From contig NZ_BKDJ01000001.1 of the NCBI RefSeq assembly GCF_008580665.1, positions 124,001 to 188,000 on the forward strand: a DNA stretch of 64,000 nt, in the 5' to 3' direction. The notes under the pieces were generated by a model, which had not been told where the DNA came from, made no database searches, and saw nothing but the letters and a program-made list of their open reading frames with translations. Positions 3,686-23,935 of the stretch are shown here, piece after piece; positions within the stretch are counted from its first letter, which is position 1, and the number at the start of each line of letters is the position of its first letter. Source of the stretch: Zafaria cholistanensis (GTDB lineage: Bacteria; Actinomycetota; Actinomycetes; Actinomycetales; Micrococcaceae). Made by a program: the position numbers and the translations under genes.

Positions 3686-4210
3686 ATGAACCAGACCGCC
3701 TACGCCATGGCCCGCTACGGGCGCGAAGCCATCCTGTCCGCCACCCCCGCCCAGCTGCTGGTCATGCTCTGCGACCGGCTTATGCTGGATCTGGGCCGCG
3801 CCGAACAGGCGCAGGTCCAGCAGGACTGGCCGGCCGCGTCCGCCCAGCTGCTCCACGCACAGGACATCCTGATGGAGCTGTCCGCCTCCCTGGACGTCAC
3901 CGTGTGGGACGGGGCCGAGGACCTGCTGGCGCTGTACCGGTATGCGCACACCGCGCTGGTGAACGCCAACATCTACCGCAACGTCGGGCTGACCCGCGAA
4001 GCGGCCTCCCTCATGGGCCCGATCTGCGACTCCTGGCGCCAGGCGGCGCAATCCCTTCCCGCGGGCCAAGCCCTTCCCGCGGGCCAAGCCCTCCCGGGTT
4101 CCCAGGCGGCCGCAAACCCGTTCGCGGCACGCCCGGCCGCCCCGGCGTCGCCTTTCGCCGCCTGGGACCACAGCCCGCGTGAGGCCGGAGGCACCCTTGG
4201 TGTCGGTTGA
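3686..4210 (+). CDS. fliS: Flagellin export chaperone FliS
   Basis: 174 residues from ATG 3686. A GTG at 3674 that overlaps the fliD stop is an alternative start. The N-terminus MNQTAYAMARYGREAILSAT and PAQLLVMLCDRLMLDLGRAE are typical of the four-helix FliS fold (residues 1-120), which binds the flagellin C-terminus to stop polymerisation in the cytosol. Unlike the usual ~125-residue FliS, it has a ~55-residue Pro/Ala tail with the repeated unit LPAGQA (near 4050-4100). The tail end overlaps the next gene by 11 bases. Confidence 0.93.
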   Translation: MNQTAYAMARYGREAILSATPAQLLVMLCDRLMLDLGRAEQAQVQQDWPAASAQLLHAQDILMELSASLDVTVWDGAEDLLALYRYAHTALVNANIYRNVGLTREAASLMGPICDSWRQAAQSLPAGQALPAGQALPGSQAAANPFAARPAAPASPFAAWDHSPREAGGTLGVG

Positions 4211-7409: not shown

Positions 7410-7488
7410 AAGCCGACCCCTGAAAGCCGTGATCCGTGAAAGCCGTGACCCCTGAAAGCCATGACATGAAAGCCACGACGTGAAAGCG
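7407..7488 (+). repeat. Six TGAAAGCC octamers spanning the fliF-fliG junction
   Basis: TGAAAGCC (the last copy is TGAAAGCG) occurs at 7407, 7421, 7437, 7453, 7467 and 7481, spaced 14 or 16 bases apart. The first copy contains the fliF stop and the last overlaps the fliG GTG. The remaining spacers read like CGACCCC or GTGACCCC. Confidence 0.8.
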
Positions 7489-8499
7489 AACCCCCGCAGC
7501 GAACTGTCCGGGCTGCAAAAGGCCGCCGTCGTGCTGATGCAGCTCGACCAGGAGGCCGCCGCCGCGGTCATGCGCGAACTCAGCGAAACCGAGGCCCAGG
7601 ACCTGGCCACCGAGATCGCGCGGCTGCGCCGGGTCGAGGCGGCGGTAGCCGACGCCGCCCTTGCCGAGTTCCACGAGCTGACCCTTTCCGGCCAGCGCCC
7701 GGCCCGCGGCGGCAAGGACGTGGCGGCCGGCCTGCTGGAGGCCACCTACGGCCGCGACCGCGCCTCCGGGGTGATGGACCGCCTGTCCGCGAGCATGGCC
7801 GGCCGTTCCTTCGAATTCCTCGAGGACGTCGACGCCGGGCAGATTTCCAGCCTGCTCGACGGCGAACTGCCGCAGACCGCGGCCCTGGTCATGGCCCACC
7901 TGCAGCCGGACCACGCGTCGGCGGTGCTGGCCGGTCTGCCCGAAGCCTCCCGCGTCCAGGTGGCCCAGGCGATCGCGGAGATGGGCCCGGCCGTCCCCGA
8001 AGCCGTGGCTTTGGTCGCGGAATCCCTCAAGAGCCGCGTCGGCGCCGTGGTCACCACCCGCAACGCGGGGGAGAGCCTGGGCGGGATCCAGCCGCTGGTG
8101 GACATCCTCAACCGCTCCGACGCCGCTACCGAACGCGGCCTGCTGGCGTCCCTGGCCGAGACCGACCCCGCCTTGGCCGAGGAGGTCCGCTCGCGGCTGT
8201 TCACCTTCGCCGATCTGGCCAAGCTGGAGAACCTGGACCTGCAGAAAGTCCTGCGCGGGGCCGACCCCGCCCTGCTGGCGCTGGCCCTGCGCGGTGCCCC
8301 CACGGCCGTCGTCGAGGCCATCGAGTCCAATATCAGCGAACGCACCCTGGCGGCCCTGGCGGAGGAGACCTCGATCCAGCGCCGGGTCCGCTCCTCGCAG
8401 GTGGAGGACGCCCGGGCGGAGATTGTCCGGGCCGTCCGCGCCCTCGAGGCGCAGGGCGAGGTGAACGTCCGCCGCATGGAGGAGGACAGCTATGTCTGA
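7480..8499 (+). CDS. fliG: Flagellar motor switch protein FliG
   Basis: 339 residues, the standard length. GTG 7480 is the first start after an in-frame stop at 7462. The N-terminal domain (LSGLQKAAVVLMQLDQEAAAAVMREL) binds FliF. The middle domain has the EHPQ-like position replaced by HLQPDHASAVLAGLPE. The C-terminal domain carries the torque helix with charged residues (FTFADLAKLENLDLQKVLRG, ... ALRGAP, SNISERTLAALAEE). It forms the rotor face that meets MotA and the core of the switch with FliM and FliN. There is no good ribosome site; the start sits in the octamer array. Its end overlaps fliH by 8 bases. Confidence 0.95.
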   Translation: MKANPRSELSGLQKAAVVLMQLDQEAAAAVMRELSETEAQDLATEIARLRRVEAAVADAALAEFHELTLSGQRPARGGKDVAAGLLEATYGRDRASGVMDRLSASMAGRSFEFLEDVDAGQISSLLDGELPQTAALVMAHLQPDHASAVLAGLPEASRVQVAQAIAEMGPAVPEAVALVAESLKSRVGAVVTTRNAGESLGGIQPLVDILNRSDAATERGLLASLAETDPALAEEVRSRLFTFADLAKLENLDLQKVLRGADPALLALALRGAPTAVVEAIESNISERTLAALAEETSIQRRVRSSQVEDARAEIVRAVRALEAQGEVNVRRMEEDSYV

Positions 8500-11041: not shown

Positions 11042-11237
11042 CGGGCGGGGCAGCCGGACGCTTTGAGGCCACAGAGAGGCGGAAACGGCGCCGGCAGATT
11101 CCACGGGATGCCGCCGCACTCTGCCCCGGCCTTTTCTGTTCCTTCCACCCGCGGATGAGTCCATGCTGGAGGGGGCAACAGGGGTCAGGCCGCTTGGCTC
11201 CGCCCTGACCCTGCGGACGCTAGAGAGGGCAGCCGCC

Positions 11238-12881
11238 ATGAGAACACCCGAACTCGACGCCACCTTCGTGCTGAGCAGGATCCTGGTCAAGAAAACCCAG
11301 GATTCCGGAGGGGACGAGCCGTACCTGTGGGTCGTTGGCTTCAAAGTCGACGCGGACACGCTCCGTTCCGGCGCCAATCCGCTGATCCCCACCGTGGAGG
11401 TCCACACCTTCGCTGGAGGACCCCACTTCCCCAACATTCGGGGCTCCGGCAGCATTGGCGCGGGCCCGCATCCGGTGCCGATCCCCGCAGCGCTTGGTAC
11501 CCGCACCTTCCGCCTGCGGCCCGCGTTCCTCGACGGAACCGGATGGTTCGACGGGTTCGGGGGCATCGTGTGCCTGCTGTGGGACCAGGACGAGTACGCT
11601 CCCAGGACGTCAGAAGAGGGCCGGAAGGAGTTCGAACGCCTGGTGGGGACGGCCCTCACGGACCTGTTGAACCTTCTCCTCCACGGCGATCCGGGATTCG
11701 ACGCGGCGCTCACCACGGACGCCCAAGGAAACCTGCTGCCCCAACCGGCGGGCGGCCTTGGTCTCACGGCCCGCATGCGACGGCTTGCGGACCCCGTGGG
11801 GGCGGCAAACGTGGCCAGGGAGCTCGCCGTCCGGCTGAAGTCCTCCCTGCTGGCACCGATCGAGGCCGCCATGGAGACTGAGGCGGATGTGGATGAGAGC
11901 TTCGATGACGACGACTCGCTGGGGGTTCAGGCAGCCCTCTTCACCACCGGCCAACTGCAGTCCCTGCAACCGATCAGCCTGCGTTTCATGGACGCGGGCG
12001 CGGACTACGAGGTCACGGGGTTCGCCTCCGGAGACCGCGTCCACAGGCACAGCTTCATCTCCTCGGTCCACTCAGTTCAACGGCAACTGGTTGAGATGAC
12101 CCCAGTCGATGCCAAGGTGTGCTGGTTCGCCCCGAAAACCTACCAGGCAATGACATTCCGCCAAACCACCACCACCAGGTTCATTGTTACGAACCTTAGC
12201 GGGACCCCCGTCGAGCAGGTGCGCTGGCTCCTGGACGGCAGGCCGCTCGACGGGCCTTCCGGCACCGTCGGGGTGACGCTGGAGCCGGCAGCCTCGATGT
12301 ACCGCCCGCCCGTCGTCAGTGTGGCCGCCAAGTACCCCGGGGGCGGAGGGACGCTGGCTTACACCATCGAGGGGCCCATCATGGACCTGACCAACACCGC
12401 CGGCGACGGCGTCTTCCACGGCACCGTACAGGCCGTCGTTCGCTACGAGGGAGACCCGCCGCTGGATGGACACATGGACGGGCCAACCCTGCTTGAGCGC
12501 GGCTATCGGCTGACCACGGCTTTCAGCGTCGTCACGCTCGAGGTGCTGATGGGCGACGATTACCGTTGGGACGTCCAGCGGTGTCTGGGGATGGTCCAGG
12601 ACATCGACCGCAAGCGAATCCCCGTCAACTGGGGCAGGGTAAAAATCATCCCGGGCGACCCCCCGCCCACGTGGGATTCCCTGCAGGAGGTTATCCGCCA
12701 GGAGTTCCTCATCACGCAAAGCCTGGCACGGCATATGCCTGATGAGACGGTCGGACCGGACACAGATGGGGCCCGATCGCCGGCGGAGCGGCTGCGCGGC
12801 CTGCAGGCCCTGCGCGAGGAGGGCTTGATCTCCGCTGACGAACTGAAGGCCGTGCGCGCCCGAATCATCGCGCAACTGTAG
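11238..12881 (+). CDS. Unknown 547-residue protein with C-terminal SHOCT-like motif
   Basis: Start ATG 11238 follows GAGAGGG by about 9 bases; the frame is open upstream to 11163. I recognise no overall family. Residues 1-150 are rich in beta and aromatic residues (DEPYLWVVGFKVDADTLRSG, GWFDGFGGIVCLLWDQDEY). A very acidic patch (DVDESFDDDD) lies near residue 220. The middle is beta-like with a possible immunoglobulin-type segment (TTTTRFIVTNLSGTPVEQVRW). The last ~35 residues (LRGLQALREEGLISADELKA) match the SHOCT short helical domain, often a regulatory or oligomerising tail. No signal peptide or membrane segment is seen. It sits between fliJ and the flagellar hydrolase and ends in a terminator-like hairpin. 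Codon use is slightly less GC-extreme than its neighbours, so it may be a later insertion. Confidence 0.85.
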   Translation: MRTPELDATFVLSRILVKKTQDSGGDEPYLWVVGFKVDADTLRSGANPLIPTVEVHTFAGGPHFPNIRGSGSIGAGPHPVPIPAALGTRTFRLRPAFLDGTGWFDGFGGIVCLLWDQDEYAPRTSEEGRKEFERLVGTALTDLLNLLLHGDPGFDAALTTDAQGNLLPQPAGGLGLTARMRRLADPVGAANVARELAVRLKSSLLAPIEAAMETEADVDESFDDDDSLGVQAALFTTGQLQSLQPISLRFMDAGADYEVTGFASGDRVHRHSFISSVHSVQRQLVEMTPVDAKVCWFAPKTYQAMTFRQTTTTRFIVTNLSGTPVEQVRWLLDGRPLDGPSGTVGVTLEPAASMYRPPVVSVAAKYPGGGGTLAYTIEGPIMDLTNTAGDGVFHGTVQAVVRYEGDPPLDGHMDGPTLLERGYRLTTAFSVVTLEVLMGDDYRWDVQRCLGMVQDIDRKRIPVNWGRVKIIPGDPPPTWDSLQEVIRQEFLITQSLARHMPDETVGPDTDGARSPAERLRGLQALREEGLISADELKAVRARIIAQL

Positions 12882-13654: not shown

Positions 13655-15585
13655 TCGCCGCGGGGGACCTGGCCGCACTCCAAAGCGCGGTGCGCCAGGC
13701 GTCCGCGCGCCCGGATGCCACGCGCCCGGATGCCACGCGTCAGGGAACCGGACGTATTCGGGCGGGACGGGACCCGGACCCCGGCTTCGAGCGCAGCCTG
13801 GAGGATGCACGCCGCCTTGAGGACGCACGCAACCTTGACGAGGCACGCCGTGCCGGTGAAACACTGCGCTCGGGTGAGGGAGCGGGTGGATCGGTGGACA
13901 GTAGGGCCCGGGCCGCAGTTGTCTCCCTAGGGACAACGGGTTTCCCCGTCCCCCTCCAGGCCGAAGGGGCACCAAAAGCCGGGGGTAGCCTGGCCCGGGG
14001 AGACCTGGCCCGGGGAGACCTGGCCCGGGGAGACCTGGCCTCGGGAGACCAGGGGGTTGCCGGCTCCAGCCTGGGATCCGCCGGCCCGGCCGTAAACTCC
14101 GCCGGCCCCGACCAGGACTGGGACGCCCGGTTGCCCGGCCCAGCAACTGCCGGCCTTGCCCCGGCAGACCCGGCTTTCCGTGCCGCGGCCGGCGTGGGCC
14201 TTCAGGACACCGGGCCGGTTCCGGAGCAGGGGCAAGGACGCCTCCGAGAGGCGTCTGCCGCGCTGCCAGGCATGCCGGGTTCCGCCGTGACCTCGAATGG
14301 ACGAGCCGCGGCTGAAAAGTTCTTGTTTGGAACGTCCTTGCCCGAAGCGTCCTTGCCCCAAACGTCCTTGCCCGGTACCTCACTGTCCGGGACGATTCCT
14401 TCGGTTGTGCCCGGCATGGCCGCTTCAGGGGCGTCAGGCACGGGGTCCGCAGTCGACGGCATTCCCGGCGCGCTCGCCGGCCAGTCCATGGATGAATCCG
14501 GGGAGGGTGGATCTGCACTGGTTGAATCTGCGCTGGTTGAATTTGGGCTGGGCAAATCCGGGCTGGGCAAATCCGGACCGGGTGGATCTGCGCTGGGCCA
14601 ATCCCCGCCAGGCGGCTCCGGACCGGATGAATCCACGCAGGGCCAATCTGTACAGGGCAAACCCGCACAGGGCGGTGACAGTGGCTCGGGCGGTTCTGGC
14701 TCGGGCGGTTCTGGTGCGGAGGGTGCGGGTCTGGATGGTGTGGGGCCGGACGGTGCTGGCCTGCACAGCGGGCGGCAGGACGTCCTCCAGGGCGGCCTGG
14801 TGATTCCGGCCCATCATCCTGCCCAGGGAGCAGTATCTTCCTCCACAGGGGCCGGCGTTCCGGTGCCTGCCGCGGGCGAGGTGTCCTCCCCGGGGCCCGT
14901 GGCGGAGGCCGGCGCACCCGCGGCCCGCCCCGCGATGGCCGGCCATGTGCCCCTGAACCGCCAGTTGGGTGGACCGGTCGCCCTGCTGGCCACGGCCGGA
15001 GCGGGGGAGCATTCCGTCACCGTCCGGGTCAGCCCGGACACGTACGGGCCCGTCACCGTCCGCGCCACCATCGGCGCGGACGGGAGCATCAAGGTGGAAC
15101 TTGCCCCCGCCACCCAGGCCGGACGCGAAGCGCTGCGCCTGGGCCTGGCCGACCTGCGCCGCGACCTCGCCCAAGTCTTGGGGGCCCAAGCCCAGGTGAG
15201 CATCCACCTGCCTTCGGACCCGGGTCGGCCCGGCGCCCTCGCGCAGGGAACCGGCCACGGGGCCCTGCCCGGCGGCGACACCGGCGGCGGCGCGGGCCAG
15301 AACGGTTGGGGCCAGCACGGCGCGGGCCAAAACGGTTGGGGCCAAAACAGCGCCGGACAGAACAGCTTCGGGCAGAACAGCTTCGGGCAGAACAACCCGG
15401 ATCAGAACAGCCCCGGCCAAAACAACCCCGGCCAAAACAACCCACGGCAAGACGGGGACGGCCCCGGATCCGCCCTGCCCGGAACCCCGGGAGGCCGCGG
15501 CGCCGGTGGCCCTGCCGCGGACGGAACAACCGGCGTCGTGCTCCCCGGTGATGCCGGGACCGGGAGCCTGGACGTGTTGGCGTGA
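13651..15585 (+). CDS. fliK: Flagellar hook-length control protein FliK
   Basis: 644 residues, long for FliK (about 370-480 is common). The only conserved part is the Flg_hook domain near residues 435-530: [59 protein letters not shown]. The rest is low-complexity and repetitive, built from short Gly/Ser/Ala units. FliK is secreted, measures hook length with its N-terminal part and switches FlhB specificity with its C-terminal part. The length and repeats could tune ruler length. It is followed by a sigma-28-type promoter and flgD, the hook cap. Confidence 0.9.
   Translation: MIAAGDLAALQSAVRQASARPDATRPDATRQGTGRIRAGRDPDPGFERSLEDARRLEDARNLDEARRAGETLRSGEGAGGSVDSRARAAVVSLGTTGFPVPLQAEGAPKAGGSLARGDLARGDLARGDLASGDQGVAGSSLGSAGPAVNSAGPDQDWDARLPGPATAGLAPADPAFRAAAGVGLQDTGPVPEQGQGRLREASAALPGMPGSAVTSNGRAAAEKFLFGTSLPEASLPQTSLPGTSLSGTIPSVVPGMAASGASGTGSAVDGIPGALAGQSMDESGEGGSALVESALVEFGLGKSGLGKSGPGGSALGQSPPGGSGPDESTQGQSVQGKPAQGGDSGSGGSGSGGSGAEGAGLDGVGPDGAGLHSGRQDVLQGGLVIPAHHPAQGAVSSSTGAGVPVPAAGEVSSPGPVAEAGAPAARPAMAGHVPLNRQLGGPVALLATAGAGEHSVTVRVSPDTYGPVTVRATIGADGSIKVELAPATQAGREALRLGLADLRRDLAQVLGAQAQVSIHLPSDPGRPGALAQGTGHGALPGGDTGGGAGQNGWGQHGAGQNGWGQNSAGQNSFGQNSFGQNNPDQNSPGQNNPGQNNPRQDGDGPGSALPGTPGGRGAGGPAADGTTGVVLPGDAGTGSLDVLA
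13990..14050 (+). repeat. 15-bp tandem repeats in fliK (LARGD units)
   Basis: Four copies of CTGGCCCGGGGAGAC, the last degenerate, encode LARGD-LARGD-LARGD-LASGD. The unit is a multiple of three, so copy number can change without a frameshift. Confidence 0.85.
14518..14690 (+). repeat. Degenerate 15-bp repeats in fliK (xGxSx units)
   Basis: Imperfect 15-base units encode pentapeptides such as LVESA, LGKSG, PGGSA, LGQSP and QGQSV. The phase is preserved over about eleven units. Confidence 0.7.
15298..15450 (+). repeat. 15-bp repeats in fliK C-terminal tail (QNxxG units)
   Basis: About ten imperfect units encode QNGWG, QNSFG, QNNPG and similar pentapeptides after the Flg_hook domain. The tail is Asn/Gln-rich, unlike the rest of the protein. 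Confidence 0.85.
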
Positions 15586-15617
15586 GGTGCCAAACCCCCT
15601 TTTAGGGGAGGTCCTGC

Positions 15618-15644
15618 TTACGCGCGGCCCCGGAGAACCGATAG
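15618..15644 (+). promoter_or_regulatory. Sigma-28-type promoter of flgD-flgE
   Basis: TTAC at 15618-15621, 15-base spacer, ACCGATAG at 15637-15644, 37 bases before the flgD ATG. It differs from the flagellin site by one base in each box and keeps the exact spacing. Confidence 0.7.
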
Positions 15645-15680
15645 ACCAGCACAAGCACGCCCACACGCCAAGGAGAAACC

Positions 15681-16118
15681 ATGTCGATCGAAGCCATCGC
15701 CTCCGCCTCCGGGGCGGCGCTGGCCGGGTCCGGCTCCGTCCGCGAGGCCAAGCAGGCCATGGACAGCGAGGTCTTCATGCAGCTTCTGGTCACCCAGCTG
15801 CGGAACCAGGACCCCAGCTCGCCGATGGATACCACCGACATGGTCGCCCAAACCACCCAGCTGGCCATGATGGAAAGCCTCACCCAGCTGACGGACGGCG
15901 TCGGGGGGCTGCTCACCGCGCAGCAGAGCACCCAGGCCGCGCAGCTGATCGGCGCGGCCGTCACCTGGACGGATGCCTCCGGCACGAGCCGTTCCGGAAC
16001 CGTGGACTCCGTCTCCTTCGGCGGGGCAGGACCTACCCTGTCCGTGGACGGCACCGACGTCCCACTGTCCGGAATCACCGGGGCCAGCGTCCCGGGCCCC
16101 GGTGCAACCACCGCGTAA
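15681..16118 (+). CDS. flgD: Flagellar hook cap/assembly protein FlgD
   Basis: 145 residues; ATG 15681 after AAGGAG. The N-terminal FlgD motif is clear: MDSEVFMQLLVTQLRNQDPS, then TTDMVAQTTQLAMMESLTQL (residues ~28-70). The C-terminal part is short and beta-rich (QLIGAAVTWTDASGTSRSG), the length seen in Gram-positive FlgD. It caps the hook during FlgE polymerisation. flgE follows after 35 bases. Confidence 0.93.
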   Translation: MSIEAIASASGAALAGSGSVREAKQAMDSEVFMQLLVTQLRNQDPSSPMDTTDMVAQTTQLAMMESLTQLTDGVGGLLTAQQSTQAAQLIGAAVTWTDASGTSRSGTVDSVSFGGAGPTLSVDGTDVPLSGITGASVPGPGATTA

Positions 16119-16153
16119 CCGACTTCCCTTCCCGGCCCCGAAAGGTCAACGCC

Positions 16154-17326
16154 ATGCTTCGTTCCCTGTACTCCGGCATCAGCGGCCTGCGTTCGCACCA
16201 GACCATGCTTGACGTCACCGGCAACAACATCGCCAACGTCAACACCACCGGCTTCAAGTCCTCCTCGGTGGTCTTCCAGGACACGCTGTCCCAGATGGCG
16301 GCCGACGGCGCCGCGGGCGACGCCCAGGCCGGCGGCACCAATCCGGCCCAGGTGGGCCTGGGCGTCCAGGTCGCAGCCATCGCGACGAACACCGCCCAGG
16401 GATCCCTGCAGCCCACCGGCAAGGCCACCGACGTGATGATCGCCGGGGAGGGGTACTTCGTGGTGTCCCAGGGCGGCCAGCAGTACTACACCCGCGCCGG
16501 CGGGTTCGAGGTGGACGACCAGGGCCGACTGAAGACCCCCAGCGGGGCGCTGCTGCAGGGGTGGCCCGCCACCAACGGCGTAGTGGACACCGCCGCCACG
16601 CTGGGCGCCCTGAACGTCGTGAGCACCACGGCCAGCCCGGCCGTGGCGACCGCCGCCCTGGGAGCCTCCGGGAACCTGCCCGACCAGGCCGCCCCCGGCA
16701 CCGTGCGCAGCACCGAGATCACCGTGTACGACGAAACCGGCGCCGCCCGCAACTTTTCGCTCGAATTCACCCGCACCGCCTACGGGTGGGATGTTGCGGC
16801 CAATGACGGCGCCGGAAACACCGCCACCACCAGCCTGGCTTTCTCCAACGGCGTGCAGACCCAGTCGGCCGCACTCACCGTGGGCGGGGCGACGGTGGAC
16901 CTGTCCGCGGTCACCGGATACTCCGGCCTGGACACCGCCGGCCTGACCAGCCAGGACGGGCGTGCGGCCGGGATGATGGAGTCCTTCTCGATTGGCCCGG
17001 ACGGCACCGTCACCGCCGCCTACAGCAACGGCGCCCGCCTGGCGGTCGGGCGCATCGCGCTGGCGGACTTCGCCAACCCGGGCGGGCTGGAGAAGGCCGG
17101 GGACTCGCTCTACCGGGCCACCGGCAACTCCGGCGCGGCGACCCTTGTGGAGCCCGGAGCCAACGGCGCGTCCACGCTGGCCTCCGGCTACCTGGAGATG
17201 TCCAACGTGGACCTGTCCCAGGAGTTCACCAACCTCATCGTGGCCCAGCGCGGTTTCCAGGCGAACGCCCGCATCATCACCACCAGCGACGACGTCCTCC
17301 AGGAACTGACCAACCTCAAGCGCTAG
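16154..17326 (+). CDS. flgE: Flagellar hook protein FlgE
   Basis: 390 residues from ATG 16154, preceded by GAAAGG. N-terminus MLRSLYSGISGLRSHQTMLD and VTGNNIANVNTTGFKSS are hook/rod signatures. The FlgE beta domain lies around residues 90-300 (GYFVVSQGGQQYYTRAGGF). The C-terminus MSNVDLSQEFTNLIVAQRGF and TTSDDVLQELTNLKR is the coiled coil that joins subunits. There is no flgF or flgG in this window; a single FlgE-type protein may serve, or distal rod genes lie elsewhere. Confidence 0.95.
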   Translation: MLRSLYSGISGLRSHQTMLDVTGNNIANVNTTGFKSSSVVFQDTLSQMAADGAAGDAQAGGTNPAQVGLGVQVAAIATNTAQGSLQPTGKATDVMIAGEGYFVVSQGGQQYYTRAGGFEVDDQGRLKTPSGALLQGWPATNGVVDTAATLGALNVVSTTASPAVATAALGASGNLPDQAAPGTVRSTEITVYDETGAARNFSLEFTRTAYGWDVAANDGAGNTATTSLAFSNGVQTQSAALTVGGATVDLSAVTGYSGLDTAGLTSQDGRAAGMMESFSIGPDGTVTAAYSNGARLAVGRIALADFANPGGLEKAGDSLYRATGNSGAATLVEPGANGASTLASGYLEMSNVDLSQEFTNLIVAQRGFQANARIITTSDDVLQELTNLKR

Positions 17327-17926: not shown

Positions 17927-18084
17927 AGTCAAGCATGCATATGCCGTCCCGCCGTCGTTGCCGCGGGGCAGGCCGCCGAGCCCCAACCGGGCCATTCGGC
18001 CCCGAAGATTTCACCGCCGGCAATCCGGTTCCGGGCGTTTTCCGCCCATGATTGCCCACCGCCGCAGTACCCGCTAGAGATTGG

Positions 18085-19764
18085 ATGCCATTGACCACCC
18101 ACCGCCGCCCCGCCCCGCCCGCGCTGCCGAAGGGGGCCCTGCGCATTGTCCCGCTGGGCGGCCTCGGCGAAATCGGCCGCAACATGACTGTCTTCGAGTA
18201 CGCCGGCAAGCTCCTGATCGTGGACTGCGGCGTGCTCTTCCCGGAGGAGCACCACCCGGGCGTGGACCTGATCCTTCCGGACTTCTCCGCCATCCGCGAC
18301 CGCCTCGACGACGTCGTGGGCCTGGTCCTCACGCACGGCCACGAAGACCACATCGGCGGCGTGCCGTACCTGCTCAAGGAACGCGCGGACATCCCCGTGA
18401 TCTCCGCGAAGCTCACCCTGGCCTTCGTGAAGACCAAGCTCCAGGAACACCGCATCACCGCCAAGATGGTGCACGTGCGTGAGGGTGACCGCAGGAAGCT
18501 GGGGCCGTTCGACCTCGAGTTCCTGGCCGTGAACCACTCCATCCCGGACAGCCTGGCCGTGGCCATCCGCACCCCCGCGGGCCTGGTGCTGCAGACCGGC
18601 GACTTCAAGATGGACCAGTTCCCGCTGGACCGCCGGATCACCGACCTGGCCGGCTTCGCCCGCCTGGGCGAGGAGGGCGTGGACCTGTTCCTGCCCGACT
18701 CCACCAACGCCGAGGTCCCCGGATTCATGGCCTCCGAGGAGGAGCTGTACCCGGCGATCGACACCGTCATGCGGACCTCCCCGCAGAAGATCGTGGTCTC
18801 CAGCTTCGCCAGCCACGTGCACCGCATCCAGCAGATCATCGACGCCGCCCACAAATACGGGCGCAAGATCGCGTTCGTGGGACGCTCGATGGTCCGCAAC
18901 ATGGGCACCGCCCGCGAGCTGGGGTACCTGAAGATCCCGCGCGGCATGCTGGTGGACTTCAAGGAGCTGGAAAAGCTGCCGCCGTCCAAGGCCGTGTTCA
19001 TCTGCACCGGCTCCCAGGGCGAGCCGATGGCGGCGCTGGCGCGCATGGCCAGCGGCGACCACCAGATCGACCTGCGCGACGGGGACACCGTGCTGCTGGC
19101 CAGCTCGCTGGTCCCGGGCAACGAGACCTCGATCTACCGGCTCATCAACGACCTCACCAAGCTCGGCGCCAACGTGGTGCACAAGGGCAACGCCAAGGTC
19201 CACGTCTCCGGCCACGCCTCCGCCGGCGAGCTGGTGTACTGCTACAACCTGGTCCGCCCCCGCAACGTGGTGCCGGTGCACGGCGAATACCGCCACCTCA
19301 AGGCCAACGCGGAACTGGCGGTCCGCACCGGGGTTGACCCCAAGCAGACCCTGATCGTCGAGGACGGCACCACGATCGACCTCAAGGACGGCGTGGCCCG
19401 CGTTTCCGGCTACGTCCAGGCGAACTACGTCTACGTGGAGAACCTGGTGGCCGGTGCCGCCACGGAAGAGTCCCTGCAGGACCGCATCCGTCTGGCCGAG
19501 GACGGCGCCGTCACCGTCCTGGCGATCGTGAACCCGGAGACCGGGGCACTGGAGGAGGACCCCGAGTTCTTCCCCGTGGGCTTCACCCCCACCCGGGCCG
19601 AGCTGGAAAAGGCCACCGGCGTGGTGGAGAAGACCCTGGCCGGCCTCAAGCGGGAAAAGACCGGACCGCACGCCGAACGCGCCATCTCCGAGGCGCTGGT
19701 GCGCTGGTCCGACCGCGCGCTGCGGCGCAAGCCGGTGGTCACGGTCATCATCGTCGAGGCCTAA
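18085..19764 (+). CDS. rnj: Ribonuclease J
   Basis: 559 residues from ATG 18085 (TTG 18052 is a longer alternative). Metallo-beta-lactamase/beta-CASP nuclease: LGGLGEIGRNMTVFEY, metal-binding LTHGHEDHIGG near residue 83, NHSIPDSLAV, GDFKMDQ, DSTNAEVPG, beta-CASP VSSFASHVHRIQQIID, and the C-terminal PVHGEYRHLKANAELA. It processes and degrades RNA 5'-to-3' and endonucleolytically. A strong terminator follows. In most actinobacteria this gene lies near dapA, so its place between flgE and flbD is unusual. Confidence 0.97.
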   Translation: MPLTTHRRPAPPALPKGALRIVPLGGLGEIGRNMTVFEYAGKLLIVDCGVLFPEEHHPGVDLILPDFSAIRDRLDDVVGLVLTHGHEDHIGGVPYLLKERADIPVISAKLTLAFVKTKLQEHRITAKMVHVREGDRRKLGPFDLEFLAVNHSIPDSLAVAIRTPAGLVLQTGDFKMDQFPLDRRITDLAGFARLGEEGVDLFLPDSTNAEVPGFMASEEELYPAIDTVMRTSPQKIVVSSFASHVHRIQQIIDAAHKYGRKIAFVGRSMVRNMGTARELGYLKIPRGMLVDFKELEKLPPSKAVFICTGSQGEPMAALARMASGDHQIDLRDGDTVLLASSLVPGNETSIYRLINDLTKLGANVVHKGNAKVHVSGHASAGELVYCYNLVRPRNVVPVHGEYRHLKANAELAVRTGVDPKQTLIVEDGTTIDLKDGVARVSGYVQANYVYVENLVAGAATEESLQDRIRLAEDGAVTVLAIVNPETGALEEDPEFFPVGFTPTRAELEKATGVVEKTLAGLKREKTGPHAERAISEALVRWSDRALRRKPVVTVIIVEA

Positions 19765-20278: not shown

Positions 20279-21046
20279 ATGGACCCCCTGCTGATCATCG
20301 GGCTCCTGCTTGCCTTTGGTTCCGTCGTGGCCATGGTCTTCATGGAGGGCGCCCACCTGAGCTCGCTGCTGCTGCCGGCGCCGATCGTGCTGGTGGTCGG
20401 GGCGACCATCGCCGTGGGGCTGGCCAGCACCACCTGGCGCGACGCCCTGCACGGAATCAGGCTGCTGCCGCGCACCTTCACCGGCAAGGTGCCTTCGCCG
20501 GCGGAGACGATCGAGCGCCTGGTCGGACTGGCCCGCACCGCCCGCGCCGAGGGCCTGCTCGCCCTCGACGCGACACTGGCCGGGACCACCGACCGGTTCG
20601 AGCGCACCGCCCTGCAGGGGATTGTCGACGGCATGCCCGGGGATGAACTGCGCATCCTCCTGGAGGAGGAGATCGGCACCCGCGAGCGCGCCGACGCGGC
20701 CGGGGCCGGGTTCTTCAACAGCATGGGCGGCTACGCCCCCACCATCGGCATCATCGGCACGGTCGTCTCCCTGACCCACGTGCTGGAGAACCTCTCCGAC
20801 CCGAGCAACCTGGGGCACATGATTGCCGCCGCCTTCGTCGCCACCCTGTGGGGCCTGCTCACCTCCAACTTCATCTGGCTGCCGATCGGGTCCCGCATGG
20901 AACGCATCTGCGCCCTGGAGACCGAGGAGATGGTGCTGGTCATGGAAGGCTCCCTCGCGATCCTCGAGGGCAGCCAGCCGGCCCTGCTGGAGGACCGCCT
21001 GCGGGCCATGGTTCCCCGGCACCGCCTGCCCGTGGAGGCCGCATGA
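20279..21046 (+). CDS. motA: Flagellar motor stator protein MotA
   Basis: 255 residues, ATG 20279. Four membrane segments: ~1-20, ~30-50, ~150-170 and ~185-205. The conserved third segment reads GGYAPTIGIIGTVVSLTHVL and the fourth AAFVATLWGLLTSNFIWLPI. The cytoplasmic loop carries charged residues (LVGLARTARAEGLLALD), which contact FliG. With MotB it forms the proton-driven stator. The last 4 bases overlap motB. Confidence 0.95.
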   Translation: MDPLLIIGLLLAFGSVVAMVFMEGAHLSSLLLPAPIVLVVGATIAVGLASTTWRDALHGIRLLPRTFTGKVPSPAETIERLVGLARTARAEGLLALDATLAGTTDRFERTALQGIVDGMPGDELRILLEEEIGTRERADAAGAGFFNSMGGYAPTIGIIGTVVSLTHVLENLSDPSNLGHMIAAAFVATLWGLLTSNFIWLPIGSRMERICALETEEMVLVMEGSLAILEGSQPALLEDRLRAMVPRHRLPVEAA

Positions 21047-21921
21047 GCCGCCGGGGCGGGAGCGCCCGGCGCGGCGGGGCCGGGCAGGGAGGCGGGCACG
21101 GAGGAGGCGGGCACGGTTCGGGGAAGGACCGCTGGATGGCCTCCTACATGGACATGGTCACCGTGCTGATGTGCCTGTTCATTGTGCTGTTCGCGATTTC
21201 CTCGGTCGACCAGAGCAAGTATGAGGCGCTCAAGCACTCCCTGGCGGAGGGCTTCGGCACGGCGGAGGAGGGGCCCCAGACCGCCCCCGCGGCGGTAGTG
21301 GAGGCAGAGGAAGCCAAGGACGAGCCCACCGACCTGCAGGCGCTGCGCCAGCACCTGGAGCAGGCCCTGGAGCAGCAGGGGATGGGCCAGGCCGTGGACC
21401 TGCGGATGGACCCCGACGGACTGACCGTGCGCCTGGTCGGCTCGGAGACCTACTTCGAGACCAACAGCGACCAGCTCACCGCCAGGGCCCGCAAGGTGCT
21501 TGGCGCGGTGGGGCCGGAGCTGGCCGCGGCCGGCCGGGAGCTCTCCATCGAGGGGCACGCCGACTACCGCAGCACCTCCGCTCCCTATGAGACCAACTGG
21601 GACCTCTCCGCGGCCCGCGCGGTGACGGTGCTGCGCCACCTGGTGGAGCGCAACGGCGTTCCCGCGCCGGAGATCAGCGCCACCGGCTTCGGCGACGCGC
21701 AGCCCCTCACCGACGGCACGGACAGCAAGTCCCTGGGCCTGAACCGCCGGGTGGACATCGTGGTCCTGGCCGGAAACAGCGAAGGCACCGGAAACAGCGA
21801 AAAAGCCGGGGACACCGAAAAGACCGGGGACACCGAAAAGACCGGGGACGCGCAGGACACCGCCGGTGCCTCCGGCGGGACCGGCGACACCCACGACGCG
21901 CAGGCGGCCGAACACAAATGA
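21043..21921 (+). CDS. motB: Flagellar motor stator protein MotB
   Basis: 292 residues from ATG 21043 overlapping motA. A Gly/Arg-rich N-terminus (residues 1-30) precedes one membrane helix with the proton-binding Asp37 in WMASYMDMVTVLMCLFIVLF. The periplasmic-side OmpA/MotB domain (~155-255) has LSIEGHADYRSTSAPYETNW and LNRRVDIVV, which bind peptidoglycan. The tail repeats GDTEKT (near 21805-21850). Proton rather than sodium coupling is suggested by the D-M context but not proven. It overlaps fliM by 4 bases, leaving no room for fliL. Confidence 0.95.
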   Translation: MSRRGGSARRGGAGQGGGHGGGGHGSGKDRWMASYMDMVTVLMCLFIVLFAISSVDQSKYEALKHSLAEGFGTAEEGPQTAPAAVVEAEEAKDEPTDLQALRQHLEQALEQQGMGQAVDLRMDPDGLTVRLVGSETYFETNSDQLTARARKVLGAVGPELAAAGRELSIEGHADYRSTSAPYETNWDLSAARAVTVLRHLVERNGVPAPEISATGFGDAQPLTDGTDSKSLGLNRRVDIVVLAGNSEGTGNSEKAGDTEKTGDTEKTGDAQDTAGASGGTGDTHDAQAAEHK

Positions 21922-22775
21922 CCGTGGAAACCTACGACTTCAACCGGCCCAGCACGCTGGCCCGCGAACACAGCCGCGTCCTGGAGCTCGGCTTTGAAAC
22001 CTTCGCCCGCCAGTGGTCCACCCAGCTGACCGCGAAGGTGCGCGCCAAGGCCGTGGCCACCAGCGACTACGTGCTGATGCAGACCTATGACGAATACGTC
22101 GCCCAGATGCCGTCCATGACCGTCATGGTGCTGTGTTCGGTCCCGGGCCACAGTGCCCGGATCGTGGTGCAGTTCCCGGTCGCCTCCGCCCTGGACTGGA
22201 TCGCCCGGATGCTTGGGGGCCGCTGTGCCTCCGTTCCCGAGCGCAAGCTCACCCCGCTGGAAGCGACCCTGGTCGGCAGGCTCACCACGGAGACCCTGGA
22301 GGACCTGCGCTATTCCCTGGGCTCGCTGATCACCGGGCCGATGGTGGTGGAGGGCATCCAGCACAACGCGCAGTTCGCGCAGGCCGCGGCCATCACCGAC
22401 CTGATGGTGGTTGCGGGCTTCACCCTGCGCGTCGGCCAGCTCTCCGGCAGCGCCACCGTGGCCATTCCGGCGGACCTGCTGCTCGCCCGCCTGGGCGCGG
22501 CCAACCCGGTGGCCGGCACGGAGGGCGCCCGCGAACTCGTGGAGTCCCAGCTGGCTGCCGTGCCGCTGGACGTGGCGCTGTCCCTGGAGCCGCTGGCCGT
22601 GCGCCCGGCGGACATCCTGGCCCTGGGCGTCGGCGACGTCCTGCGGCTCAACCACACCCGCCACCGACCCTTCGACCTGACCGTCAGCGGCCGCACCATC
22701 GGCCGCGCCGCCGTCGGCACCAGCGGTTCCCGCCTGGCCGCCCATGTCACCGCCCTCGAGGAGAACAACCCATGA
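21918..22775 (+). CDS. fliM: Flagellar motor switch protein FliM, lacking the CheY-docking N-terminus
   Basis: 285 residues, shorter than the usual ~330. The start ATG overlaps the motB stop. The protein begins at YDFNRPSTLAREHSRVLELG, which aligns to about residue 45 of typical FliM, so the usual N-terminal EIDALL CheY-P motif is absent. The middle domain (SMTVMVLCSVPGHSARIVVQ, LDWIARMLGG, LTPLEATLVGRLT) and C-terminal SpoA domain (DVALSLEPLAVRPADILALG, TVSGRTIGRA) are intact. It forms the C-ring with FliG and FliN. Upstream codons in this frame within motB read Arg/Gly-rich, not EIDALL. Confidence 0.93.
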   Translation: MTVETYDFNRPSTLAREHSRVLELGFETFARQWSTQLTAKVRAKAVATSDYVLMQTYDEYVAQMPSMTVMVLCSVPGHSARIVVQFPVASALDWIARMLGGRCASVPERKLTPLEATLVGRLTTETLEDLRYSLGSLITGPMVVEGIQHNAQFAQAAAITDLMVVAGFTLRVGQLSGSATVAIPADLLLARLGAANPVAGTEGARELVESQLAAVPLDVALSLEPLAVRPADILALGVGDVLRLNHTRHRPFDLTVSGRTIGRAAVGTSGSRLAAHVTALEENNP

Positions 22776-23500
22776 CCGCCCCCCGTTCCCCCCAGGATCC
22801 GCTGGCCCGTGCCGCCGAGGCGGCCGCCGCGGCCTACCCCGCGCAGACCCCGCTCTCCGCCGCGCCGGAGCGGATGCCCCCGGGCACCGCCGCGACCTGG
22901 GTCGGTGCCGGGTTCATCGGCACCGCCTCGGCGGATGTGGTGCTGGGCGTGCTCGACGACGCCGCGCTGGCCGCCGCGGCCGGCGTCCCCGCGGGCACGG
23001 TCGCCCCGCGCGATGTCCTGCACGGCACGCTGGAGGCCGCCGTCGCCGGGTTCGGCACCGGCGTCCTGGGCGAGTCCTACCTGGCCGACCCGGCCCTGTT
23101 CATGGCGTCCGCCGACACCTCCACCTATGCGCTGCGCGACGCGTTCGGGAACATCGTCGCGTGGTTCGGCATCTCGGTGGCCCAGGCCGCCCCGGCGGCC
23201 GCGGCCGCCCCCCACACCCCCGCGGCGACGGGCTTCCCGGTCGACGTCGCCGCGGGCCTTAACCGCATCTCCTCGGTGGAGATGCAGCTGACGGTCGAGA
23301 TCGGCCGCACCCGCATGAGCGTGCGCGACGTGCTGAACCTGGAGCCGGGCAAGATCGTGGAGCTGGACCGCTCCGCCGGCGCCCCGGCCGACGTGCTGCT
23401 CAACGGCCGCAAGATCGCCCAGGGCGAGGTCGTCGTGGTGGACCAGGACTACGCCATCCGCATCACCCGCATCCTCGACTCGGCGGAGGACCACGCCTAG
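22772..23500 (+). CDS. fliN: Flagellar motor switch protein FliN with long N-terminal domain (FliY-like)
   Basis: 242 residues; ATG overlaps fliM by 4 bases. The SpoA domain at ~165-240 is typical FliN: MQLTVEIGRTRMSVRDVLNL, PGKIVELDRSAGAPADVLLN, GEVVVVDQDYAIRITRIL. The N-terminal ~150 residues (ADVVLGVLDDAALAAA, DVLHGTLEAAVAGFGTGVLG) resemble the size and layout of FliY, whose N-terminal region binds CheY-P in Bacillus. This could compensate for the missing FliM motif, which is inference. Confidence 0.92.
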   Translation: MTAPRSPQDPLARAAEAAAAAYPAQTPLSAAPERMPPGTAATWVGAGFIGTASADVVLGVLDDAALAAAAGVPAGTVAPRDVLHGTLEAAVAGFGTGVLGESYLADPALFMASADTSTYALRDAFGNIVAWFGISVAQAAPAAAAAPHTPAATGFPVDVAAGLNRISSVEMQLTVEIGRTRMSVRDVLNLEPGKIVELDRSAGAPADVLLNGRKIAQGEVVVVDQDYAIRITRILDSAEDHA

Positions 23501-23935
23501 GTGGACTCGCTCTTCCTGGTCCTGCGCGTGGCGGTCTCGCTGGCGGCGGTGCTCGGGCTGCTGTGGTACCTGCAGCGCCGGTTCGCCGGCCGCCTCGGCG
23601 CCCACCCGCGCGCCGAGGTCTCGGTGCTCTCCCGCACCCCGCTCGGCCCCAAGTCCCACGCCGTGGTGCTGCAGGCGCACGGGCGCCGCTACCTGCTGGG
23701 GGTGACCGAGCACGGAGTCAGCGTGCTCGACGGCGACCTGCCGCCGGCACCGGTGTTCCAGGTTGATCCGGACTTGCCAGTCCATCCGGAGGCGCTGCCG
23801 CACGAGGACCTGCCCTATGGAGCCCAACCGGCGGGGGATGGCCGTGCCGCAGCTTCCTTTCCTGCGTCCTTGCCGGCCTCCTTCCGGTGGCCGCCCGCGC
23901 CGCAGCAGCAGAGGCGGGGGCGAAGGGCGCTGTGA
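23501..23935 (+). CDS. fliO: Flagellar biosynthesis protein FliO
   Basis: 144 residues from GTG 23501, directly after the fliN stop, with GGAGGA 11 bases upstream. One membrane helix at ~3-23 (LFLVLRVAVSLAAVLGLLWY), then the short FliO domain: VLSRTPLGPKSHAVVLQAHG, RRYLLGVTEHGVSVL. The C-terminal ~60 residues are low-complexity. FliO stabilises FliP during assembly of the export gate, encoded next with a 4-base overlap. Confidence 0.9.
   Translation: MDSLFLVLRVAVSLAAVLGLLWYLQRRFAGRLGAHPRAEVSVLSRTPLGPKSHAVVLQAHGRRYLLGVTEHGVSVLDGDLPPAPVFQVDPDLPVHPEALPHEDLPYGAQPAGDGRAAASFPASLPASFRWPPAPQQQRRGRRAL

Follow-up and report, generated by a model that had tools for sequence, protein, structure and literature searches.

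The flagellar genes of Zafaria cholistanensis raise the question of how a motor switch is thrown when FliM lacks the peptide that binds CheY and FliN carries a long N-terminal addition. The window analyzed here is a 64,000 nt stretch of the draft genome (3.29 Mb in 49 contigs; 99.96% complete), and a flagellar gene cluster spans the window from its start to about 30 kb. The locus probably represents an ordinary FliG-FliM-FliN C-ring in which both means of receiving CheY-P are absent or inactive, and the bacterium itself would have no chemosensory pathway.

The genes motA (20279..21046), motB (21043..21921), fliM (21918..22775), fliN (22772..23500) and fliO (23501..23935) are consecutive on the plus strand with overlapping start and stop codons, fliO being located directly after fliN. 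MotB displays the MotB_plug and OmpA domains. The third C-ring protein is encoded by fliG (7480..8499, plus strand) and has all three of its domains. A second RNase J gene is found inside the flagellar cluster at positions 18052–19764, ahead of flbD, and the other copy is at G000:C4. The RNase J of the cluster was found in none of the best 80 named loci, 47 of which reach the match to the window frame at 15506–17326. The cluster also has an open reading frame of 572 aa (11163–12881) that displays no Pfam match.

FliM and its missing peptide

fliM encodes a predicted 285 amino acid protein that starts with the sequence MTVETYDF, where the YDF block that begins the core is at residues 6–8. The ATG at position 21918 overlaps the motB stop codon as ATGA. 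The frame upstream of the YDF block is open for 114 codons, however no ATG, GTG or TTG is present upstream of 21918 in the 110 in-frame codons inspected. An EIDALL-like motif is found neither in these 110 codons nor in a recount over the whole upstream frame. Thus the claims of the sequence-only reading that FliM begins at the YDF block, with its ATG overlapping motB, and that it lacks the CheY-binding motif both stand. An upstream start giving EIDALL and a second fliM were looked for and neither was found: a profile search of the whole genome shows a single match to PF02154, and the two matches to PF01052 are fliM and fliN.

The FliM domain (PF02154) is at residues 6–185 and the FliMN_C domain at 211–279. 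The PF02154 score of 79.2–80.2 bits exceeds the gathering cut-off of 27 but is the lowest of the 39 FliM proteins examined in the order. With the NCBIfam equivalog fliM_switch TIGR01397 the protein stays below the cut-off (128.1 vs. 219.6 bits). The structural model (pLDDT 82.3) has the FliM middle-domain fold (Z 25.8 to 4fhr_A). By structure comparison, residue 12 of the model pairs with residue 45 of Thermotoga maritima FliM, and residue 5 or 9 with residue 40 or 44 of Salmonella FliM. By this structural numbering the window FliM is short by ~35 N-terminal residues; a missing N-terminal stretch had been proposed from the sequence, and only its length, given there as 45, has to be corrected.

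The absence of the peptide is not peculiar to this genome. FliM was detected in 39 of 118 relatives searched, own genome included. Comparison of FliM starts, which the earlier reading had also proposed, shows that the canonical EIDALL is absent in all 39, with 38 displaying no motif and one a variant. The sequences upstream of FliM in G031, G068 and G070 are identical to the ones in Arthrobacter koreensis, Tersicoccus solisilvae and Arthrobacter horti, respectively, which points to Micrococcaceae as the probable family. Neither the canonical nor a variant motif is present at any of the 78 readable FliM starts among the best 80 named loci retrieved by means of the FliN alignment, the starts of L148 and L174 not being readable. 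A leader similar to MTVQE is found in 28 of these 78 and is shortened in the window.

The window FliM has the sequence GGRC at positions 22215..22226 (plus strand) where the alignment shows GGxG in 10 of the 19 Micrococcaceae members and in EIDALL-bearing FliM proteins. GGxG is a putative element of the FliG interface. Reading of the alignment shows that it is absent from FliM in eight of the 19 family members, with one more unclear, and from that of G079 and G097 among the 15 CheW-positive members of the order. GGRC as a mark of decay unique to the window is ruled out by the lack of GGxG in other family members.

The FliN extension

fliN encodes 242 aa and its ATG overlaps the fliM stop codon. 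The SpoA domain (PF01052, E-value = 4.2e-25) is at residues 165–235 (23264..23476, plus strand) and is preceded by about 160 residues; the N-terminal addition had been recognized in the sequence-only reading, although at a length of ~150. The protein passes NCBIfam fliN TIGR02480 (91.8 bits, cut-off 84.05) and fails the NCBIfam FliY model NF005995 (85.2 bits vs. a cut-off of 218), where only the SpoA part matches.

Sequence searches give little on the nature of the addition. The window extension displays no Pfam match, and CheC and CheX (PF04509, PF13690) are not detected in any of the 39 extensions of the order at E-values up to 10, in a search whose filters drop weak matches. There is no sequence match in a PDB profile search. 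Comparison of profiles with the CheC-type FliY found in deeper lineages is negative, and the extension matches one other long-FliN family only (E-value = 4e-4, probability 36%).

An AlphaFold2 model was made with 70 sequences. The alignment termed A2 consists of the window and 69 of the best 80 named FliN sequences (nine near-duplicates, L148 and L175 left out). A further alignment, A5, has the window and 66 named sequences, with L163, L173 and L174 also left out. Residues 11–140 of the model have a pLDDT of 87–98; the linker is poor. The predicted domain encompasses residues 7–137 (22790..23182, plus strand) and in VIA-align 2 its best match is T. maritima CheX, 1squ_A (Z 11.9, 3.1 Å over 129 residues). 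This is followed by the CheX of the CheX-CheY complex, 3hzh_B (Z 11.3), CheC 1xkr (Z 9.6), the FliM middle domain (Z 7.8) and T. maritima FliY (Z 7.5), and the first unrelated row is at only Z 2.7. Identity in the structural alignments with CheX and CheC is 5 to 10%. Foldseek places whole FliM chains at the top (E-value = 1.4e-6, rmsd near 20) because FliM shares the two-domain layout, with CheX and CheC-like chains from an E-value of 2.2e-4. As the FliM middle domain is also among the structural matches, the origin of the extension may be CheX-like or FliM-like, both being compatible with the model.

The phosphatase site of CheC and CheX is ExxN. In a putative register of the helix expected to carry it, FliN residues 88–91 (E A A V; 23033..23044, plus strand) are the likely counterpart. 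The Glu is kept in 35 of 39 sequences of alignment A1 and in 65 of 70 in A2, which is drawn from the best 80 named loci. An Asn at residue 91 is found in none of the 39 and none of the 70; one Asn is nearby at position 92 in A2, and one at position 93 in A1. Near-invariant positions of the domain are G50, P23, P85, E88, A90, G95 and L99 (alignment A3). The EIDALL peptide has not moved to FliN, as it is absent from the window FliN and from all 70 sequences of A2, again from the best 80 named loci. An EIDALL-like motif is present in two of the 79 FliN sequences found, and both of these genomes have the FliM motif as well.

The extension is therefore predicted to be a domain of the CheX/CheC fold that sequence methods do not detect and that lacks the phosphatase Asn. 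FliN probably has a degenerate FliY-like layout. It is the predicted fold, not the sequence, that suggests homology to CheC and FliY.

Chemotaxis genes in the order and phylum

No match to PF01584, the CheW domain which is also present in CheA, and none to the chemoreceptor domain PF00015 was found in a profile search of the draft genome; each of the two models matches in seven of 14 control genomes. PilZ (PF07238) is also without a match (5 of 14 control genomes match). The genome has 20 response-regulator domains, one of which is a single-domain protein. The sequence-only reading had suggested looking for cheA and had considered that chemotaxis may not control the switch. The lack of CheW, CheA and chemoreceptors supports this, as does the absence of PF01584 from all 19 flagellated Micrococcaceae genomes. 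PF01584 is found in 15 of the 20 flagellated genomes of other families of the order. A gene can always be missed in a draft assembly, but its absence in 19 of 19 family members is not chance. PilZ is present in one of the 19 family members, in 12 of the 15 CheW-positive members of the order and in two of the five others. Thus braking by c-di-GMP of the YcgR type seems to be missing in the family too.

FliN has 105–200 residues before SpoA in each of the 39 flagellated genomes examined, CheW-positive or not. Since both the FliM and FliN traits are order-wide, they are inherited and are not peculiar to this genome. The order includes 15 genomes with CheW, and neither C-ring trait is tied to loss of chemotaxis within it.

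The phylum sample comprises 296 genomes, 52 of which have FliM; three of these are already in the order set and 49 are new, and CheW is found in 42 of the new ones. The combined 88 FliM loci are from related genomes, so that the counts do not represent independent events: 57 are CheW-positive (including G085 and G173, which have a single weak or lone CheW-domain match), with 23 displaying the canonical motif, two a variant and 32 none, and 31 are CheW-negative, with no canonical motif, two variants and 29 without a motif. All 23 canonical EIDALL sequences are thus in CheW-positive genomes. The variants without CheW are EIEGLI in G072 and EIAGIL in G225. At locus L010 (G072, no CheW match) the variant is seen as AEIEGLIAQ about 45 residues before the FliM FDF.

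In 12 of the 32 motif-less CheW-positive genomes FliN is short, with 3–49 residues before SpoA (FliN is missing from the fetched flank at nine of the 88 loci). FliM without the motif occurs with long and with short FliN, and the link implied in the sequence-only reading, a longer FliN as a consequence of the shorter FliM, does not hold across the phylum.

Related to the chemosensory system, the parts of PMC10746217 consulted describe a CheA frame with two neighboring CheW domains as a mark of class F5, and a change of class from F1 to F5. Reading of the match tables shows the two-CheW CheA frame in 25 of the 32 motif-less CheW-positive genomes (exceptions are G085, G088, G104, G173, G302, G348 and G406) and in none of the 23 genomes with the canonical motif. 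Judged from these genomes, loss of the FliM peptide appears to go with the F1 to F5 change and not with loss of chemotaxis.

Chemotaxis regions of 11 motif-less genomes, three of which are cut by a contig end, show two receivers ending near a stop codon in six cases, one in two and none in three. In eight motif-bearing genomes, one recognizable CheY type is present in seven. Two different CheY-like receivers are found in the EIDALL-less chemotaxis regions L180, L181, L182, L184, L187 and L189. In L191 (G193) the open reading frames at 4171 and 12535, about 8 kb apart, have the same CheY receiver sequence.

FliN of deeper lineages can be CheC plus SpoA, e.g. in L053. The match to Pfam CheC (PF04509) is strong in L053 (E-value = 1.8e-27) and L050 (1.3e-21) and weaker in L051 (0.026); L059 shows only CheX at 0.006 and L070 shows no match. 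Across these lineages the CheC domain looks like one in graded decay, with a presumed order of events.

Control of the switch

In the proposed history, an actinobacterial ancestor would have had EIDALL in FliM together with a FliY-type FliN (CheC domain and SpoA), as deeper lineages keep. A later lineage would have lost the FliM peptide while chemotaxis was still present, and the CheC-type domain may have decayed to a small CheX-like domain at about the time when the chemosensory class changed. The Micrococcaceae would then have lost chemotaxis altogether. The motor may turn in one sense or switch spontaneously, but not on CheY-P, and the FliN domain may have been kept as a structural element at the FliN level of the lower C-ring, or to bind a partner that does not belong to the Che pathway.

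Selection on the extension bears on this last step. dN/dS was determined by the Nei-Gojobori method in pairs of the same genus or family; the window is in no pair, and for G031/G057, one pair of eight, there is no ratio because the two extensions do not differ. The values for the extension are 0.14–0.35 in seven CheW-less pairs and 0.42–0.53 in seven CheW-positive pairs, and the two mixed pairs give 0.39 and 0.53, although the pairs are not independent (G015, G044 and G068 are in three each and G085 in two). Comparable values for FliM are 0.05–0.26 in the CheW-less (the seven pairs that have an extension ratio), 0.24–0.47 in the CheW-positive and 0.37–0.56 in the mixed pairs. The ratio of extension to FliM has a median of about 1.4 in CheW-less vs. 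1.2 in CheW-positive pairs, a difference within noise. Thus constraint on the whole C-ring is stronger in the CheW-less family, where the extension is not clearly relaxed. Purifying selection on the extension in CheW-less relatives disfavors a role limited to CheY, and we infer that the role is likely structural or otherwise non-chemotactic. That the extension, relative to FliM, evolves slightly faster in the CheW-less than in the CheW-positive pairs, a noisy result, weighs against the preferred reading, as does the survival of a variant FliM motif in two CheW-less genomes.

Another signal protein could dock on the FliN domain, e.g. an orphan single receiver or a metabolic partner. This is unlikely, although the genome does have a single-domain receiver of 126–127 aa (G000:C8) and the FliN domain keeps a conserved core of the size of a surface. 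The receiver is on another contig, where it adjoins a hybrid kinase, an Hpt-receiver protein, a HEAT-repeat protein and a glycosyltransferase, which points elsewhere. The orphan receiver as motor input was rejected on this gene neighborhood. More generally, input other than from CheA may come through the response regulators in the genome.

The proposal of the earlier reading that the FliN extension mediates the action of CheY-P, in the manner of a FliY-type switch, has little probability here. It would agree with the CheX-like fold, including the similarity to the CheX that is in complex with CheY, and with presence of the extension throughout the 15 CheW-positive members of the order, whose FliM proteins all lack EIDALL. 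However, the genome has no CheA/CheW to phosphorylate CheY and no chemoreceptor, the extension has neither the phosphatase Asn nor EIDALL, and it is present in 19 of 19 CheW-less family members, among which it evolves under purifying selection. Because FliN is also short in 12 of the CheW-positive genomes whose FliM lacks the motif, action through FliN cannot be the general answer, but it may hold for CheW-positive relatives. Of the two interpretations offered from the sequence alone, absence of chemotaxis control is thus the one retained, and CheY acting through FliN is not.

A decaying C-ring, with flagellar genes being lost after loss of chemotaxis, is no better placed. The low PF02154 score, the GGRC sequence and the shortened leader of FliM would fit such a process, but the C-ring, stator and export reading frames are intact, the FliM model keeps its fold and GGxG is missing in other family members as well. 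In addition, the portion of PMC9608346 consulted reports an Arthrobacter relative to be motile, with fliM and fliN expressed. An error of start site or assembly, which is easily made in a GC-rich operon of overlapping genes, can practically be dismissed, as there is no in-frame upstream start codon or motif and the motif is likewise absent at all 78 readable starts among the best 80 named relatives.

For most of the CheW-positive later-lineage actinobacteria, we lean somewhat toward the view that CheY-P controls the motor without EIDALL, through direct contact with the FliM core or with some other surface of the C-ring. The peptide would have been discarded at the class change, so that chemotaxis could later be lost at no cost, and the CheC-type domain would have been recast as a structural FliN module that outlives chemotaxis. 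As seen in part, PMC9126983 describes binding in two steps, where the N-terminus of FliM serves only to increase the local CheY-P concentration and the second site is in the middle domain. In relatives with CheW, CheY would have to bind at a place other than the peptide, and direct docking on the FliM core is therefore the simplest guess.

The same source, in the part seen, states that the FliM motif is present in all motile bacteria. The 32 of 57 CheW-positive flagellated actinobacterial genomes without an EIDALL-like FliM motif disagree with this statement, and if CheY-P does control these motors without the peptide, the textbook two-step docking of CheY is not universal. Cellulomonas, Sanguibacter, Curtobacterium and Arthrobacter are candidate culturable genera in which to ask how, or whether, the switch is thrown. 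The Micrococcaceae would offer a switch complex free of chemotaxis input, a case that PMC10746217, in the part seen, calls very rare and treats as a question of behavior.

Several known systems are comparable. Sections of PMC10746217 report 14 of 69 flagellated actinobacterial species to be without a chemosensory system and how these steer to be unclear; the window organism shares with them the flagellar genes and the lack of CheA, CheW and receptors. In the same sections FliN, FliM and FliY are named only in method lists, and the FliM N-terminus and a FliN extension are not discussed. A literature search found no report of a CheX-sized, sequence-invisible FliN domain with an EIDALL-less FliM in CheW-positive genomes.

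Compared to canonical FliM, the window protein has the middle domain and SpoA in common, and it lacks ~35 residues at the N-terminus, among them the CheY-binding peptide. With the CheY-P phosphatases CheX and CheC, the FliN domain shares the predicted fold but differs in being fused to FliN, in lacking the Asn of ExxN and in its very low identity. FliY of Bacillus and Thermotoga likewise has a fold of the CheC/CheX family ahead of SpoA, in the place of FliN, if the model is correct. Unlike FliY, the window domain is CheX-sized (about 130 residues), cannot be recognized by sequence, has no EIDALL peptide and is below the NCBIfam FliY cut-off. The available part of PMC6946799 reports phosphatase-dead FliY in Epsilonproteobacteria and Leptospira. 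This inactive form, in Campylobacter, Helicobacter and Leptospira, resembles the window FliN, which is without the ExxN Asn. Thus a FliY with an inactive CheC domain is already known, and what appears to be new is the combination of a CheX-sized FliN domain invisible by sequence with a FliM that lacks EIDALL.
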